NCBI RefSeq assembly: GCF_902726645.1
Contig: NZ_CACVAO010000001.1
Span: forward strand, 3,296,636 to 3,360,635
Direction of reading: 5' to 3'
Length of the DNA: 64,000 bases
Origin: Halobacillus ihumii
GTDB lineage: Bacteria > Bacillota > Bacilli > Bacillales > Halobacillaceae
Of this stretch, positions 45,590-50,305 are shown in pieces. The notes below the pieces were generated by a model. That model searched no databases. It had not been told where the DNA came from and worked only from the letters and a program-made list of their open reading frames with translations. Every line of letters starts with the position of its first letter. Within the stretch, counting starts at the first letter, position 1. The position numbers and the translations under genes were made by a program.

Positions 45590-45713
45590 AAGGTGGTCGG
45601 GGAAATAACTCGCTTTCCGTGGGCGTACGGTGAGCTTCCTCAGGCTTCCGCCTTCCGGGATCTCACCCTGTACTATAATCCCACAGGAGTCTCGTCATTT
45701 CCCCGACCACCTT
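45590..45713. repeat. 124-bp palindromic repeat element, copy A
   Basis: Perfect 17-bp terminal inverted repeats AAGGTGGTCGGGGAAAT and ATTTCCCCGACCACCTT enclose ACTCGCTTTCCGTGGGC, GGTGAGCTTCCTC, a central palindrome with CTCACC, and CACAGGAGTCTCGTC. I recall this sequence type as a dispersed repeat in many Bacillaceae genomes. No coding capacity. It lies in the 730-bp gap between rlmN and the bmr leader. Confidence 0.85.
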
Positions 45714-45910
45714 ACCTAGTAAAAGAAACGGAACGGGTACCTGTCAGTGTAGGAACACTACATAACCATTAATTATGACAGCTTTTATAGGTCTACCTTC
45801 ATGAATGAACAGTACCGTTAAATTCAATCTCCGTTAAAGGAAGGCCCGATGCTCGTCTGGAGAAGTATCTCCGATTTTTTACTAAATGGTTCCGTAGAGC
45901 TCATTATCGA

Positions 45911-46020
45911 AATGGGAAACTGCGAGACTCCTACGGGAAAGGAAAGGCTGGCGAGGCCCCGGAGGTCGGAGACCGAGGAGACTTGCCGTCTTCCCCGTGG
46001 AAAGCGAGTGGTTTTCCATC
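45911..46020. repeat. Palindromic repeat element, degenerate copy B in opposite orientation
   Basis: On the minus strand this reads CCACTCGCTTTCCACGGGG, a run of CTCC/CCTCGG, and CGTAGGAGTCTCGCAG, matching copy A in the same order but with decayed ends and centre. The two copies are therefore inverted relative to each other about 200 bp apart. Confidence 0.75.
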
Positions 46021-46124: not shown

Positions 46125-46153
46125 TTGCATTAATTTTCCGAAAATTGTATAAT
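46125..46153 (+). promoter_or_regulatory. Sigma-A promoter of the bmr leader-bmrC-bmrD unit
   Basis: TTGCAT (46125-46130), 17-nt spacer, perfect TATAAT (46148-46153). Transcription would begin near 46160, just before the ribosome binding site of the leader peptide. Confidence 0.75.
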
Positions 46154-46184
46154 ATATAATCATTGAGAAAAGGAGGTCACGACC

Positions 46185-46244
46185 ATGAAAAAACGAATTG
46201 TACGATCCCAGTCCAATTTCATATGGTTCGTGGCCAGCCGGTAA
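46185..46244 (+). CDS. Leader peptide of bmrCD attenuator (BmrB-like)
   Basis: A 19-residue ORF, MKKRIVRSQSNFIWFVASR, with AAAGGAGG 8 nt before its ATG. Its last codons (TTC GTG GCC AGC CGG) contain TTCGTGGCC, an exact copy of the 3' arm of the downstream terminator. In B. subtilis the bmrCD transporter genes are preceded by bmrB, whose translation controls transcription attenuation in response to ribosome-targeting antibiotics; the position and logic here are the same, although I cannot compare the peptide sequence with BmrB. The peptide itself probably has no function after release. Confidence 0.75.
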   Translation: MKKRIVRSQSNFIWFVASR

Positions 46245-46285
46245 ACCTAGTTTATTCCATGAGAATAGGTTCATAGCGGGCCACG
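46229..46285 (+). promoter_or_regulatory. Predicted antiterminator of bmr leader
   Basis: CGTGGCC at 46229-46235, inside the leader ORF, can pair with GGCCACG at 46279-46285, the 5' arm of terminator 1. Between them AACCT...ATTC and GAAT..AGGTT form an inner helix, so the whole segment can be one long stem. It excludes terminator 1. A ribosome reading to the leader stop would cover its 5' strand. Confidence 0.6.
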
Positions 46286-46303
46286 TATGTTCGTGGCCTT
46301 TTT
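46279..46303 (+). terminator. bmr leader terminator 1
   Basis: GGCCACG (46279-46285) pairs with CGTGGCC (46292-46298) around TATGTT, then TTTTTA. Attenuating terminator within the leader. Confidence 0.8.
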
Positions 46304-46313
46304 ATGTGTTTGG

Positions 46314-46344
46314 AAAGCATACGTCACGTACGTATGCTTTTTTT
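46314..46344 (+). terminator. bmr leader terminator 2
   Basis: AAAGCATACGT (46314-46324) pairs with ACGTATGCTTT (46330-46340) around CACGT, then more T. The strand CATACGT can alternatively pair with ACGTATG at 46283-46289 in terminator 1, so it may be conditional too. Further weak hairpins TCTGTC/GACAGA (46358-46375) and AAGCGG/CCGCTT (46395-46412) follow. Confidence 0.75.
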
Positions 46345-46447
46345 GAGTTTTTAGGCGTCTGTCATAAAGGACAGATCTTTATTTTCTTGGTGGCAAGCGG
46401 CTGTGACCGCTTCACATAAATACATGATTACAGGAGGTTTTTATGAA

Positions 46448-46504
46448 ATGAGTAACAAATGGACGCACAAAGAATGGAACGAAGGTTGGAAAGAGAGTGG
46501 TTAG
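46448..46504 (+). CDS. Second small ORF upstream of bmrC
   Basis: An 18-residue ORF, MSNKWTHKEWNEGWKESG, with three tryptophans, preceded by AGGAGG. An overlapping ATG at 46443 gives only MK before a stop and is the closer start to the AGGAGG. It ends 28 bp before bmrC. It may be a second regulatory peptide or a coupling ORF. No homologue recognised. Confidence 0.5.
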   Translation: MSNKWTHKEWNEGWKESG

Positions 46505-46532
46505 CTAGTGAACAGATGAAAGGATGATAGCG

Positions 46533-48278
46533 ATGTTTAGTGTGTTAGTGAAGTTACGCTGGTTTTTTAAGCAATATTGGAAAAGGTACACATTTGCCAT
46601 TATCGCCTTGATTATCGTAAGTGCGATTGATTTAATCCCGCCAAAATTGGTTGGGATGGCGATTGATGAAATACAATTTAATACGTTAACAATGGAACAT
46701 CTAATTGATGTGCTGCTTTTATATGGCGGATTGATTATTGCCAGTTACACGATCTCATATTTATGGGATTATACGTTATTCAGCGGAGCGGCTATTATGG
46801 AGCGCAGTATGCGTTCAAGACTGATGGATCATTTTCTCAAAATGACTCCGAGATTTTTTCAACGTAATAAGGCTGGCGACTTAATGGCCCGCAGTACAAA
46901 TGATCTTAAAGCCATTGAAATGACGGCTGGGTTTGGAATACTAACGTTGATCGACTCGACGATCTTTATGATCTTAATCATTGCGATGATGGGGTTGACG
47001 ATCAGCTTTAAGTTAACCTTAGCAGCTTTGATTCCGCTGCCGATTATGGCGTTTGTGATGAATAAGTATGGCGGTGTGATTCATAAGCGTTTTATGGAAG
47101 CTCAGGAAGCTTTCGGGGAATTAAATAATTATGTGCTGGAATCAGTGAGAGGGGTTCGGGTAGTCAGGGCTTTTGTCCAGGAACGACAGGACCAGCATAG
47201 GTTTCAGAATATAACTGAAGATGTGTACGGGAAAAATGTCAAAGTAGCCAAGGTGGATGCTTTGTTTGAACCAACCATAACCGTTCTCGTAGGAATCTCT
47301 TACACCATCGGCCTTGGGTATGGGGCCTCACTTGTTTTTCACAATGTGATTACGCTCGGTGAGATGGTTTCTTTTAACGTATATTTAGGCATGTTAATTT
47401 GGCCGATGTTTGCGGTTGGCGAGCTGATCAATGTGATGCAGCGTGGGAATGCCTCACTGGATCGAGTAAATGAAACGCTGCAGTATAAGCCTGACGTTCT
47501 GTCCCCTAGTCATCCGAGAAGGCTCGATTATCCAGATACGATCGAGTTTAAAGGGGTAGATTTTCAATACCCAGGGGCGGAAGTTAAAGGGTTAAGTCAA
47601 TTGGATGTGTCGATCAAACGCGGTCAGACGATTGGCATTGTAGGGAAGACTGGTGCTGGAAAAACCACACTGTTCAGACAGTTGCTCCGTGAATATCCGG
47701 GGCTTCAAGGCTCTTTGCAAATTAATGGCATCGATATCAAAAACTTGGACTTAGATACGACACGATCCTGGATTGGTTATGTCCCACAAGAGCAAATTTT
47801 GTTCTCTAAGTCCATTCGCGAGAACATTCAGTTTGGTAAAAAAGGGGCGACGGATGAGGAGATTTATCGAGTCATGCGCTTAGCCCACTTTCTAGAAGAT
47901 ATGAAAATTTTACCGAAAGGGCTCGACACGATGGTGGGAGAAAGCGGGGTTACCCTGTCTGGAGGGCAAAAACAGCGAGTTGCGATAGCCCGGGCTTTCA
48001 TCATGGACCCGGAAATTCTCATGCTTGATGATGCAATGTCAGCTGTGGATGGAGAGACAGAGGCAGCCATTATCGAACATCTTCGTAAGGAACGAGAAGG
48101 AAAAACAACGCTGATTGCTGCGCATCGATTGTCTGCGGTGACTCACGCTGATCATATTCTAGTGCTTGAAGATGGCCGAATTGCTGAGCAAGGTACTCAT
48201 CAGGAGCTGATGAAGCAAAAAGGCTGGTATCAGACACAATATGATCATCAGCAGCTTGATCGGGAGGTGAAGGAATGA
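46533..48278 (+). CDS. bmrC: Multidrug ABC transporter subunit BmrC (YheI-like)
   Basis: 581 residues: six transmembrane helices (about 15-300) and a nucleotide-binding domain. Walker A GKTGAGKTT near 372-380, Q-loop YVPQEQILFSK, signature LSGGQKQR and Walker B ILMLDDAMSAVD. The residue after Walker B is Asp rather than the usual catalytic Glu, which marks the degenerate site of a heterodimeric exporter. Opening FSVLVKLRWFFKQYW closely resembles B. subtilis YheI. ATG 46533 follows AAAGG with 9-nt spacing; ATG 46524 overlaps that site. Overlaps bmrD by 4 bp (ATGA). Expression is probably controlled by the leader upstream. Confidence 0.93.
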   Translation: MFSVLVKLRWFFKQYWKRYTFAIIALIIVSAIDLIPPKLVGMAIDEIQFNTLTMEHLIDVLLLYGGLIIASYTISYLWDYTLFSGAAIMERSMRSRLMDHFLKMTPRFFQRNKAGDLMARSTNDLKAIEMTAGFGILTLIDSTIFMILIIAMMGLTISFKLTLAALIPLPIMAFVMNKYGGVIHKRFMEAQEAFGELNNYVLESVRGVRVVRAFVQERQDQHRFQNITEDVYGKNVKVAKVDALFEPTITVLVGISYTIGLGYGASLVFHNVITLGEMVSFNVYLGMLIWPMFAVGELINVMQRGNASLDRVNETLQYKPDVLSPSHPRRLDYPDTIEFKGVDFQYPGAEVKGLSQLDVSIKRGQTIGIVGKTGAGKTTLFRQLLREYPGLQGSLQINGIDIKNLDLDTTRSWIGYVPQEQILFSKSIRENIQFGKKGATDEEIYRVMRLAHFLEDMKILPKGLDTMVGESGVTLSGGQKQRVAIARAFIMDPEILMLDDAMSAVDGETEAAIIEHLRKEREGKTTLIAAHRLSAVTHADHILVLEDGRIAEQGTHQELMKQKGWYQTQYDHQQLDREVKE

Positions 48279-50305
48279 GGAAGCCTTCAACAGAACGTAA
48301 ATTATTTAATTTTGCTTTATTGTATCGAAGGAATATTGTTATTGGGCTTGTTTGTTTAGTTATTGCGGTTGCTTTAGAGCTTACAGGGCCATTTATTGCC
48401 AAGCGTCTGATTGATGAACATATCGTCGGCATTGAGGACCAATGGCATGAAGTTCAGCAGCCTGATGCCTACACGGTTTCTTATAACGGAGAACTGTATA
48501 AACGGGCCGACCGTATTGAGGAAAATGATGAAGTAACCGATACGGCAACTATTTTGCAAGTAGGCCGGAATTATATGTTTATTCCTTCTGATGTGCCTCT
48601 GACGGGCAGTCGCTCCTATCAAGATGGAGTCGTTACCATTACTTTAAATGGGGAAACGATGAAAGCTGAAGCAGAGCAACTGTCTTTGACAGAGCTGTAT
48701 CGTTTCTTCGAGCCTGAACAGCGCTCGATTTACTGGCTGCTTGCCATCTATCTCGGGCTTCTGCTGATTGCAGCTGTTTTTCAATTCATTCACACATTTA
48801 TTCTTCAAAAGACGTCTAATCGTATTATTAAGCGAATGAGAGATGACGTATTTGCTCATATTCACCGTCTGCCTGTGAATTATTTTATCGATCAGCCGGC
48901 GGGGAAAATCGTGGCGCGCGTTACAAACGATACAGAAGCGATTCGGGAGCTTTACGTCAAGGTGCTGGCCACATTTGTTACAAGTATTTTTTACATGGCG
49001 GGGATCTATGTCGCTCTGTTTTTGCTAGATGTGAAGCTTGCTTTGATGTGTTTGCTGCTGATTCCGATTATTCTGGTATGGATGAGGCTGTATAAGCATT
49101 ATGGGGGCAAGTACAATAGCGTTGTGCGATCTACCGTTAGTGATATGAATGGGAGTATAAATGAAGCGATACAAGGCATGTCGATTATTCAAGCCTTTCG
49201 TCAGGAAAAACAAACGTCGGAGGATTTTGAACGTCTGAATACGAGACATTTCAATTACCAACGTAAACTTGTACGATTGAGTGCTTTAACTTCGTTTAAT
49301 TTGGTAAATGTATTGAGAAACATCGCTTTTGTTGCGTTTCTTTGGTATTTCGGTTCCTCATCAATTGGCGTGGAAGGAATTGTAACAGCCGGTGTACTTT
49401 ACGCATTCGTTGATTATTTGAACCGGCTTTTTCAACCTGTAACGGATCTCGTTAATCAGCTGCCGCAGCTTGAGCAGGCTCGTGTCGCTGCTGGACGCGT
49501 ATTCGAGCTGCTTGAACAACCGGTGGAATCTCAAGACCATGAGCCTGTGTCCCGTTATCGTGGAAAGATTGCCTTTAAACAGGTAACCTTTGCCTATACA
49601 AAAGGAGAAGACGTGCTCAAAGATATTAATTTCGAAGTACAGCCGGGACAGACGGCAGCCTTTGTCGGTCACACAGGTTCTGGAAAAAGTTCAATTATGA
49701 ACTTGTTATTTCGTTTTTATGACCCTCAAACTGGTGAGATCACGATCGATGGCCACTCTACAAAAGAATGGTCACGGCAGCAGGTACGTAGTCACATGGG
49801 GATCGTGCTCCAGGATCCCTTTATTTTCTCGGGGACGATTTTGTCGAATGTAACGATGAATGATGAAAAAATTTCCCGGGAAATGGCTATCAATGCCTTG
49901 AAAGCTGTAGGGGCAGATCGCTTTATAGAAAAATTACCAGATCAATATGATGCCGTTCTGCAGGAAAAAGGAGATTCTTTATCAATGGGAGAGCGTCAGT
50001 TGATTTCTTTTGCCAGGGCACTCGCGTTTGATCCAGCTATTTTAATCCTGGATGAAGCGACGGCGAACATTGATACGGAAACCGAGCAGATCATTCAGAA
50101 AGCCTTGGAAGTATTAAAGCAAGGCCGGACGACACTTGTGATTGCCCACCGATTATCCACCATTCAGCAGGCAGATCAAATTTTCGTATTAAATCGTGGT
50201 ACAATGATAGAGCGAGGAACGCATAGTGAACTTCTGGCTGAAGGCGGCCAGTACTACCAGATGTATCAAATGCAGCAGGGTGCCGTTAAAGCAGGTGCTA
50301 TGTAG
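48275..50305 (+). CDS. bmrD: Multidrug ABC transporter subunit BmrD (YheH-like)
   Basis: 676 residues. Between the first and second transmembrane helices there is an inserted hydrophilic region (about 48-145), the extracellular domain known from BmrD. Nucleotide-binding domain: Walker A GHTGSGKSS near 466-474, LQDPFIFSGT, signature-position LSMGERQ (a slightly altered LSGGQ) and Walker B LILDEATANID with the catalytic Glu. With BmrC it forms a heterodimer with one competent ATPase site. Exports drugs such as Hoechst dye and doxorubicin in B. subtilis. ATGA overlap with bmrC shows coupling. Confidence 0.93.
   Translation: MRKPSTERKLFNFALLYRRNIVIGLVCLVIAVALELTGPFIAKRLIDEHIVGIEDQWHEVQQPDAYTVSYNGELYKRADRIEENDEVTDTATILQVGRNYMFIPSDVPLTGSRSYQDGVVTITLNGETMKAEAEQLSLTELYRFFEPEQRSIYWLLAIYLGLLLIAAVFQFIHTFILQKTSNRIIKRMRDDVFAHIHRLPVNYFIDQPAGKIVARVTNDTEAIRELYVKVLATFVTSIFYMAGIYVALFLLDVKLALMCLLLIPIILVWMRLYKHYGGKYNSVVRSTVSDMNGSINEAIQGMSIIQAFRQEKQTSEDFERLNTRHFNYQRKLVRLSALTSFNLVNVLRNIAFVAFLWYFGSSSIGVEGIVTAGVLYAFVDYLNRLFQPVTDLVNQLPQLEQARVAAGRVFELLEQPVESQDHEPVSRYRGKIAFKQVTFAYTKGEDVLKDINFEVQPGQTAAFVGHTGSGKSSIMNLLFRFYDPQTGEITIDGHSTKEWSRQQVRSHMGIVLQDPFIFSGTILSNVTMNDEKISREMAINALKAVGADRFIEKLPDQYDAVLQEKGDSLSMGERQLISFARALAFDPAILILDEATANIDTETEQIIQKALEVLKQGRTTLVIAHRLSTIQQADQIFVLNRGTMIERGTHSELLAEGGQYYQMYQMQQGAVKAGAM

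Follow-up and report, generated by a model that had tools for sequence, protein, structure and literature searches.

A putative ribosome-controlled attenuator and a conserved second short ORF in the bmrCD leader of Halobacillus ihumii

Introduction

The bmrCD attenuator of Bacillus subtilis was presented as the first ribosome-mediated transcriptional attenuation of a multidrug ABC transporter, according to the excerpt of the report on which we draw (PMC4191407). Induction of bmrCD needs both the translation of the leader ORF bmrB and its terminator (Reilman 2014, excerpted in PMC4191407), and the bmrB leader is induced by lincomycin, chloramphenicol and erythromycin (same excerpt, PMC4191407). 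An earlier, sequence-only reading of the Halobacillus ihumii locus treated here had stated that bmrB translation controls bmrCD in B. subtilis, in agreement with this account (PMC4191407).

The H. ihumii leader resembles that of bmrB in its target gene and in having a leader ORF (translated in B. subtilis), a terminator, an antiterminator and a predicted anti-antiterminator, as far as the excerpt describes these (PMC4191407). It differs in the number and place of the terminators: B. subtilis has one, inside the 162-nt bmrB, whereas H. ihumii has two, which lie beyond the stop codon of a 19-codon leader ORF, here called uORF1. It differs further in a pairing segment, R1, at the Shine-Dalgarno sequence (SD) of uORF1 and in a second short ORF, ORF2, of which the excerpt makes no mention for bmrB (PMC4191407).

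Other resistance genes are preceded by partly similar arrangements, again according to excerpts of the respective articles. In Bacillus licheniformis, erm(K) likewise has two adjacent intrinsic terminators before it and differs in the gene and the leader peptide (PMC4335068). The vmlR leader of B. subtilis uses the same AAT/AT/terminator logic, with antibiotic sensing at a uORF and a second layer at translation; this second layer, however, is a hairpin over the vmlR SD and not a second peptide, and the vmlR uORF reads Met-Ile-Asn (PMC9226507). Two leader peptides likewise precede one resistance gene in ermBL/ermBL2, in which ermBL2 overlaps the 3′ end of ermBL and takes part in translational attenuation (PMC8274638). 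ORF2, in contrast, is separate, is located beyond both terminators and has a conserved C-terminus. The strand logic of the trp-type 1:2:3:4 attenuator equals that of the four segments R1 to R4 described below, but strand 1 lies not inside the leader ORF but at its ribosome-binding site, and the sensor is probably antibiotic stalling rather than charged tRNA.

Materials and methods

The window is the whole 64,000-nt stretch of H. ihumii DNA that was analysed. Its bmrC leader was compared with those of relatives in three sets that total 166 leaders. Set A (81 leaders) consists of the H. ihumii leader and 80 bmrC loci (L001-L080), the best 80 of 206 found. Set B contains 60 leaders (L121-L180) from one order, which we take to be the Bacillales, with 25 families by database labels; BmrC was detected at E<=1e-180 in 274 of the 397 genomes of this order that were searched. 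Set C holds 25 leaders from 30 loci fetched with a YheI query, after L196, L197 and L206 (no start) and L209-L210 (no usable leader) had been left out. Some set B leaders duplicate set A (e.g. L122 and L027), and distinct sequences were counted where stated. ORF2-type ORFs were called by a rule combining position, SD and end, with [DE][SGD]G as the strict end.

Results

The leader precedes a bmrCD orthologue

46125..46153, + strand: putative promoter (TTGCAT 46125-46130, 17-nt spacer, TATAAT 46148-46153), read from the sequence
46533..48278, + strand: bmrC, ATG 46533 preferred over 46524
48275-50305, + strand: bmrD, directly after bmrC

By sequence comparison, the gene 3′ of the leader encodes an orthologue of B. 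subtilis BmrC/YheI, and the predicted target of the leader is the bmrCD orthologue. The closest solved structure to the bmrC product is YheI (BmrC) of B. subtilis (E=1.4e-228), and the alignment to YheI makes ATG 46533 the most likely start. The −35 box TTGCAT of the putative promoter is weak, and the promoter is absent from the listing of the program scan. Rfam gave 17 matches across the window, none of them at gathering score within 46125-46532. Just 5′ of the promoter, at 45600-46020, we noticed two inverted-repeat stretches, CTCGCTTTCCGTGGGC... / ...CCCCGTGGAAAGCGAG, with GAGACTCCTACGGGA; similar inverted stretches occur before bmrC in L034, L051 and L052.

Four alternately pairing segments form the putative attenuator

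46170..46184, + strand: uORF1 SD AAGGAGGT (46170-46177) and segment R1 GGTCACGACC (46175-46184), from the sequence and pairing tests
46185..46244, + strand: uORF1, leader ORF of 19 codons, MKKRIVRSQSNFIWFVASR, from ORF reading
46225..46235, + strand: segment R2 GGTTCGTGGCC, predicted antiterminator strand within uORF1, from pairing tests
46278..46303, + strand: terminator 1 (T1), with R3 at 46278-46285, loop 46286-46291, R4 at 46292-46299 and a U tail, from hairpin scan and folding

The sequence-only reading had described a promoter, a 19-codon ORF and two T-tailed hairpins before bmrC, and all of them were recovered at the same positions. It had also pointed to TTCGTGGCC, present once in uORF1 (46227-46235) and again in T1 (46290-46298). 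This repetition proved to be non-random, as an equally good partner for the T1 5′ arm appeared in none of 100 shuffles of the uORF1-to-T1 stretch of H. ihumii, and relatives have kept the arrangement. A further complementarity, absent from that reading, connects the uORF1 SD region (R1) with the end of uORF1 (R2). Pairing energies in the H. ihumii leader amount to −14.0 kcal/mol for R1:R2, −13.3 kcal/mol for R2:R3 and −15.0 kcal/mol for R3:R4.

When a partner for R1 was sought in a wider region, it beat 95% of shuffles in 60/74 (A), 35/55 (B) and 9/24 (C) leaders; the SD of ORF2, taken as a control in the same test, did so in 1/39, 4/40 and 0/15, respectively. The best partner lay beyond the uORF1 stop in 10/153 leaders, so the test was repeated inside uORF1 plus 15 nt, where R1:R2 beat 95% of shuffles in 64/74 (A), 39/55 (B) and 8/24 (C), the low count for set C including five rows (L186-L190) in which the wrong upstream ORF had been picked and which were counted as misses in both tests. 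The core, in which the ribosome-binding site provides strand 1, was thus present in 111 of the 153 leaders tested, even where the word itself had changed. The H. ihumii leader is among the ten exceptions of the wider search, its best R1 partner being R4 with its U tail and not R2; R1 may therefore also serve in the read-through state.

The segments also fit each other across species. For 58/70 set A leaders, the stretch that pairs best with R1 overlaps the one that pairs best with the T1 5′ arm (23.5 expected); R3 was counted in 48/70, several of the misses being loci whose first U-tailed hairpin was T2 and not T1. In the cleanest test, R2 was picked solely for its fit to R1; its mean energy with the R3 of the same leader was −12.0 kcal/mol, compared with −9.0 kcal/mol when R3 was permuted among species, and none of 5000 permutations reached that value (80 distinct rows from the 166 leaders, kinship ignored, family f28 entering through the doubtful ORF of L159). 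In some leaders the pairing partners have been exchanged together: in the Terribacillus leader L065 the entire word is replaced in SD (GGAGGAACCC), uORF end (GGGCAGCTCCTCC) and R3 (GGAGTCTGCC), and in the B. subtilis-like L181-L182 the R1:R2 pair reads GGAGGGTTTGC / GCAAACCC. The comparison thus demonstrates the predicted pairings and their co-variation, a check that the sequence-only reading had proposed for orthologous leaders and that came out in favour of the helices of this first tier.

Relative to uORF1, the R2-type word of 104 distinct leaders begins in frame 0 in 77, in frame 1 in 12 and in frame 2 in 15 (row L006, which took the wrong ORF, was retained). Because the word occurs in all three frames, it points to RNA pairing and not only to a peptide motif. 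We also considered uORF1 as a conserved arrest peptide (NFI...VA/VT) and set this candidate aside; the R2 word, off the main frame in 27/104 leaders, accounts for part of the motif. As a separate observation, AATTTCATA is located at 46215-46223, a few bases 5′ of R2, and an RNTTNATA motif before R2 is present in 65/104 leaders, 55 of these in one frame.

A short SD-bearing ORF upstream of a predicted intrinsic terminator is the arrangement of a leader-peptide transcription attenuator, and the comparison supports tier 1 as a conserved attenuator with mutually exclusive antiterminator and terminator. By its sequence organisation, this core belongs with the bmrB attenuator, as a variant of it. 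The proposed antiterminator role of the T1 3′ arm copy in the uORF is upheld by the comparison; the other part of the proposal, control by the ribosome, would apply if uORF1 is translated and T1 terminates as predicted, and is consistent with what is known of B. subtilis bmrB. The use of the SD as strand 1 appears to be new.

A second terminator and its possible links to the first

46315..46346, + strand: terminator 2 (T2), hairpin 46315-46339 (46312-46342 with flanks), arms 46315-46324 / 46330-46339, loop 46325-46329, U tail to 46346, from hairpin scan
46357..46376, + strand: weak third terminator-like hairpin, from hairpin scan
46395..46412, + strand: hairpin H3 (AAGCGG..CCGCTT), followed by CACATAAAT, by eye
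46283..46289, + strand: ACGTATG, previously taken as the copy that forms a second tier, judged incidental from shuffles and permutation

T1 and T2 are each followed by a T-run, and by consensus they represent two adjacent intrinsic terminators, both beyond the uORF1 stop at 46244. A T2-like hairpin was detected in 69 of the 74 set A leaders having a uORF candidate and recurs in sets B and C. Hairpins at the H3 position, with other stem sequences, were seen by eye in several relatives; inspected by eye as a promoter −10 element or as an SD-hiding hairpin, H3 found no support. Imperfect palindromes of the form AAGTATAAGAAA...TTCGCCATAATTTGGCGA...TTTTTCTA, which look like small dispersed repeats, are inserted between T2 and ORF2 in L047, L055 and L071 and between T1 and T2 in L021, and they occur twice in L047 and L055.

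According to the sequence-only reading, each terminator has its 3′ arm copied upstream, and the state of T1 would decide that of T2 through ACGTATG in T1, a copy of the T2 3′ arm. The copy exists; its pairing energy with the T2 5′ arm is −9.3 kcal/mol, and it stands out against shuffles in the H. ihumii leader taken alone (p=0.03). It is not conserved, however: in L001, with a BmrC 98% identical, the loop reads ACGTATA (p=0.65), and an upstream copy of the T2 arm reached p<=0.05 in 6/69 leaders with a median p of 0.55, which is about chance, so that the general statement fails for T2. Nor does the T1 5′ arm prefer the T2 5′ half of its own leader to those of other species (permutation p=0.68, n=88). 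Constrained folding of the tier-1 states in set A, a broader relay test whose values are given below, likewise failed to make the T2 5′ arm harder to open. Moreover, ACG 46283-46285 is paired both in T1 and in the R2:R3 helix, hence the copy is whole in neither state of tier 1. Taken together, a relay through ACGTATG is very improbable. Several Halobacillus leaders have by eye another partner for the T2 5′ arm (UAUGU with RCAUA) in the spacer past the T1 U tail, with no link to the T1 state.

A different link would run through R4. If R2 holds R3, the freed 3′ arm of T1 could pair with the 5′ half of T2, and T2 would be switched off as well. The H. ihumii leader is compatible with such a domino relay: R4 CGTGGCC pairs with T2 CGTCACG at −8.3 kcal/mol (p=0.03), and the T2 5′ arm is 2.9 kcal/mol harder to open in the R2:R3 state. 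When R4 was permuted against T2 halves, p was 0.051 in set A (n=41), 0.006 in sets B and C (n=47) and 0.035 overall (n=88), with kinship ignored, and the R3 and T2-3′ controls of the same permutation gave p values of 0.18-0.92. The opening energy of the T2 5′ arm rose by at least 2 kcal/mol in 17/38 (B) and 11/20 (C) leaders, against 2 and 0 losses. In many Bacillus-type leaders, the best match to the T2 5′ arm is the T1 3′ arm plus tail, but 95% of shuffles are beaten in only 11/57 (B) and 7/25 (C), counts in which several rows (e.g. L123, L125, L128) mistook T1 for T2.

Other tests speak against this relay. In set A, constrained folding from the T1 to the R2:R3 state changed the opening energy of the T2 5′ arm by a median of −0.1 kcal/mol in 43 leaders (9 gains, 4 losses), an earlier annotation of 62 leaders having given +0.16 kcal/mol (13 gains, 8 losses). 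R4 against shuffled T2 halves reached p<=0.05 in 3/43 (A), 4/34 (B) and 5/14 (C), with 2, 1 and 3 for the R3 control. In a spacer-shuffle control p was 0.115 for H. ihumii and p<=0.05 in 5/43 (A), 8/38 (B) and 8/20 (C). The rows behind these statistics are related, and freeing R4 raises the odds of any pairing; in the fold of 46170-46346, R4 and its U tail have an alternative partner upstream, at R1 and the uORF1 SD. The relay via R4 is thus suggestive at the level of predicted pairing, and as an account of the leader we consider it unlikely.

The simpler possibility that T1 and T2 are plain tandem terminators, of which only T1 is regulated and T2 cuts the leak, has close to an even chance in our view. 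No clear T2 partner emerged across set A, and the excerpt on erm(K) offers a precedent for adjacent terminators (PMC4335068). Difficulties arise from the terminators themselves. In 13 of 62 set A leaders (H. ihumii being outside the 62), T1 is followed by three or fewer T in the eight bases after the stem, and the R2:R3:R4 word is kept. T1 is therefore unlikely to be the regulated terminator in these leaders, which would leave T2 alone and calls for some link between T1 and T2, a point in favour of the R4 relay. Furthermore, the script search found one U-tailed terminator in the B. subtilis-like L181-L182, and this is the bmrC-proximal one; in B. subtilis the single leader terminator is the regulated one, according to the excerpt (PMC4191407).

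A second short ORF with a conserved end

46432..46504, + strand: ORF2, with SD AGGAGG 46432-46437, ATG 46448, MSNKWTHKEWNEGWKESG and TAG 46502-46504 (ORF 46448-46504), from ORF reading and comparison

Beyond both terminators, ORF2-type ORFs were called in 98 of the 166 leaders (A 40/81, B 42/60, C 16/25), 93 of them with the strict end; those without it are L033, L153, L159, L161 and L178, of which L033 and L159 are doubtful. In set B they extend over 23 of the 25 families, f28 only through L159. By the rule, ORF2 is absent from 68/166 leaders, including 41/81 in set A that are largely of the Oceanobacillus/Ornithinibacillus/Virgibacillus type, hence ORF2 is not essential. Thirteen leaders have an SD-ORF in the ORF2 position that lacks the motif. 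The B. subtilis-like L181-L182, which are outside this count, show an ORF2-type end when read from the DNA (KIEGG, stop).

The end of ORF2 is fixed as an acidic residue, Ser/Gly/Asp, Gly and stop, and the N-terminal part varies between lineages. The sequence-only reading had noted an 18-residue Trp-rich ORF at 46448; the ORF itself stands, richness in Trp is a property of some lineages, and what is conserved is the C-terminus with the stop context. Since the motif was part of the rule, the share of ORFs ending in Gly is true by construction, and the stop codon and the +4 base are independent of it. In 84 distinct ends, the stop was TAG in 68, TAA in 11 and TGA in 5, and the base that follows was C in 49, T in 27, A in 7 and G in 1 (pyrimidine in 76/84). 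TAG ends bmrC in 2/80 loci (L001-L080) and other leader SD-ORFs in 43/212. The strict motif was present in 75/98 distinct SD-ORF ends at the ORF2 position and in 6/212 elsewhere in the same leaders, the latter being the extra ORF2-type ORFs of L025, L035, L039, L121, L135 and L137. A search with the ORF2-end pattern matched 30/44 genomes of the nearest family, once each, and the reversed control none; where the bmrC position was listed, the match lay just 5′ of bmrC in 11/12 genomes, with none in G012. Conservation of this signature is thus evident in the compared leaders and far beyond chance. The middle codon of the last three residues is RRY in 75/84 distinct ends, so the constraint may in part concern the RNA; once, in L169, the serine codon is TCT instead of AGY.

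Several observations concern the surroundings of ORF2. A two-codon ORF, ATGAAATGA at 46443-46451, overlaps its start, and in L001 the ATG of this two-codon ORF opens a 21-codon ORF in another frame. The Aquibacillus-type leaders L025, L035, L039 and L121 contain a second ORF2-type ORF ~245-265 nt before bmrC, and, after it, an ORF of ~45 residues similar to the N-terminus of BmrC (e.g. MFSMFRKVDWFF...), as if an ORF2-bmrC start had been duplicated and retained; in L039 the small BmrC-like ORF has a GTG start and was missed by the script search. L135 and L137 have their extra ORF2-type ORF (end KRLEGG) ~380 nt before bmrC, upstream of the usual ORF2, and the script search detected no small BmrC-like ORF in these two leaders.

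Termination is weakened further, beyond the effect of a C-terminal Gly, by UAG with a following pyrimidine and by a nearby acidic residue. Peptides ending in Gly are released slowly in vitro by RF1 and RF2, as quoted in an excerpt (Pierson 2016, cited in PMC7246954). On these two grounds, we propose ORF2 as a slow-termination leader peptide, which presupposes that it is translated. A conserved C-terminus and stop context together with a variable N-terminus fits a termination-arrest leader peptide of TnaC-like logic. The main rival is plain coupling, in which ORF2 would be a mere translational coupler or ribosome platform and the peptide end would be irrelevant. Its good SD, the distance of its stop to bmrC (15-58 nt upstream, median 32) and the freely varying N-terminal part agree with a coupler, but coupling by itself would require no such marked bias at the three C-terminal residues, the stop codon and the next base; we regard it as a serious though less probable explanation. 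The literature searched, consisting of listings and abstract openings, yielded no description of ORF2, which we take as new.

Discussion

We propose a leader-peptide attenuator built from R1 to R4, with T2 limiting leak and ORF2 acting by slow termination, and assign a probability of about 0.6 to this model as a whole. The leader would consist of alternating copies of one word, such that R1 can pair with R2, R2 with R3 and R3 with R4. If uORF1 is empty of ribosomes, R1:R2 would form and then T1; if uORF1 is normally translated, the ribosome would cover R2 and T1 would form as well. If a ribosome is held at the uORF1 start or close to it, by analogy with B. subtilis bmrB through antibiotic stalling, it would cover R1, whereupon R2 pairs with R3, T1 fails and transcription continues. 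It is the position of strand 1 at the ribosome-binding site that would let a ribosome near the uORF1 start free R2.

T2, as a predicted second intrinsic terminator, most likely limits leak, and in some lineages it is the sole terminator with a good U tail. Transcripts that have passed T1 and T2 would carry ORF2. A ribosome parked at the ORF2 stop might then set the translation of bmrC, whose start is ~32 nt downstream, or might protect the mRNA.

In its most far-reaching form, which we put forward tentatively and hold to be appreciably less probable than the model itself, ORF2 would be an order-wide second leader peptide of bmrCD that works through termination programmed to be slow, with the end acidic-small-Gly-UAG-pyrimidine. 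Ribosomes would then gate the pump at two levels, at transcription through uORF1 with a pairing domino to T2 and at translation or mRNA stability through ORF2, perhaps in response to drugs or conditions affecting peptide release. If ORF2 does work by slow release, it would be an unusual case in which the speed of termination controls a resistance gene.
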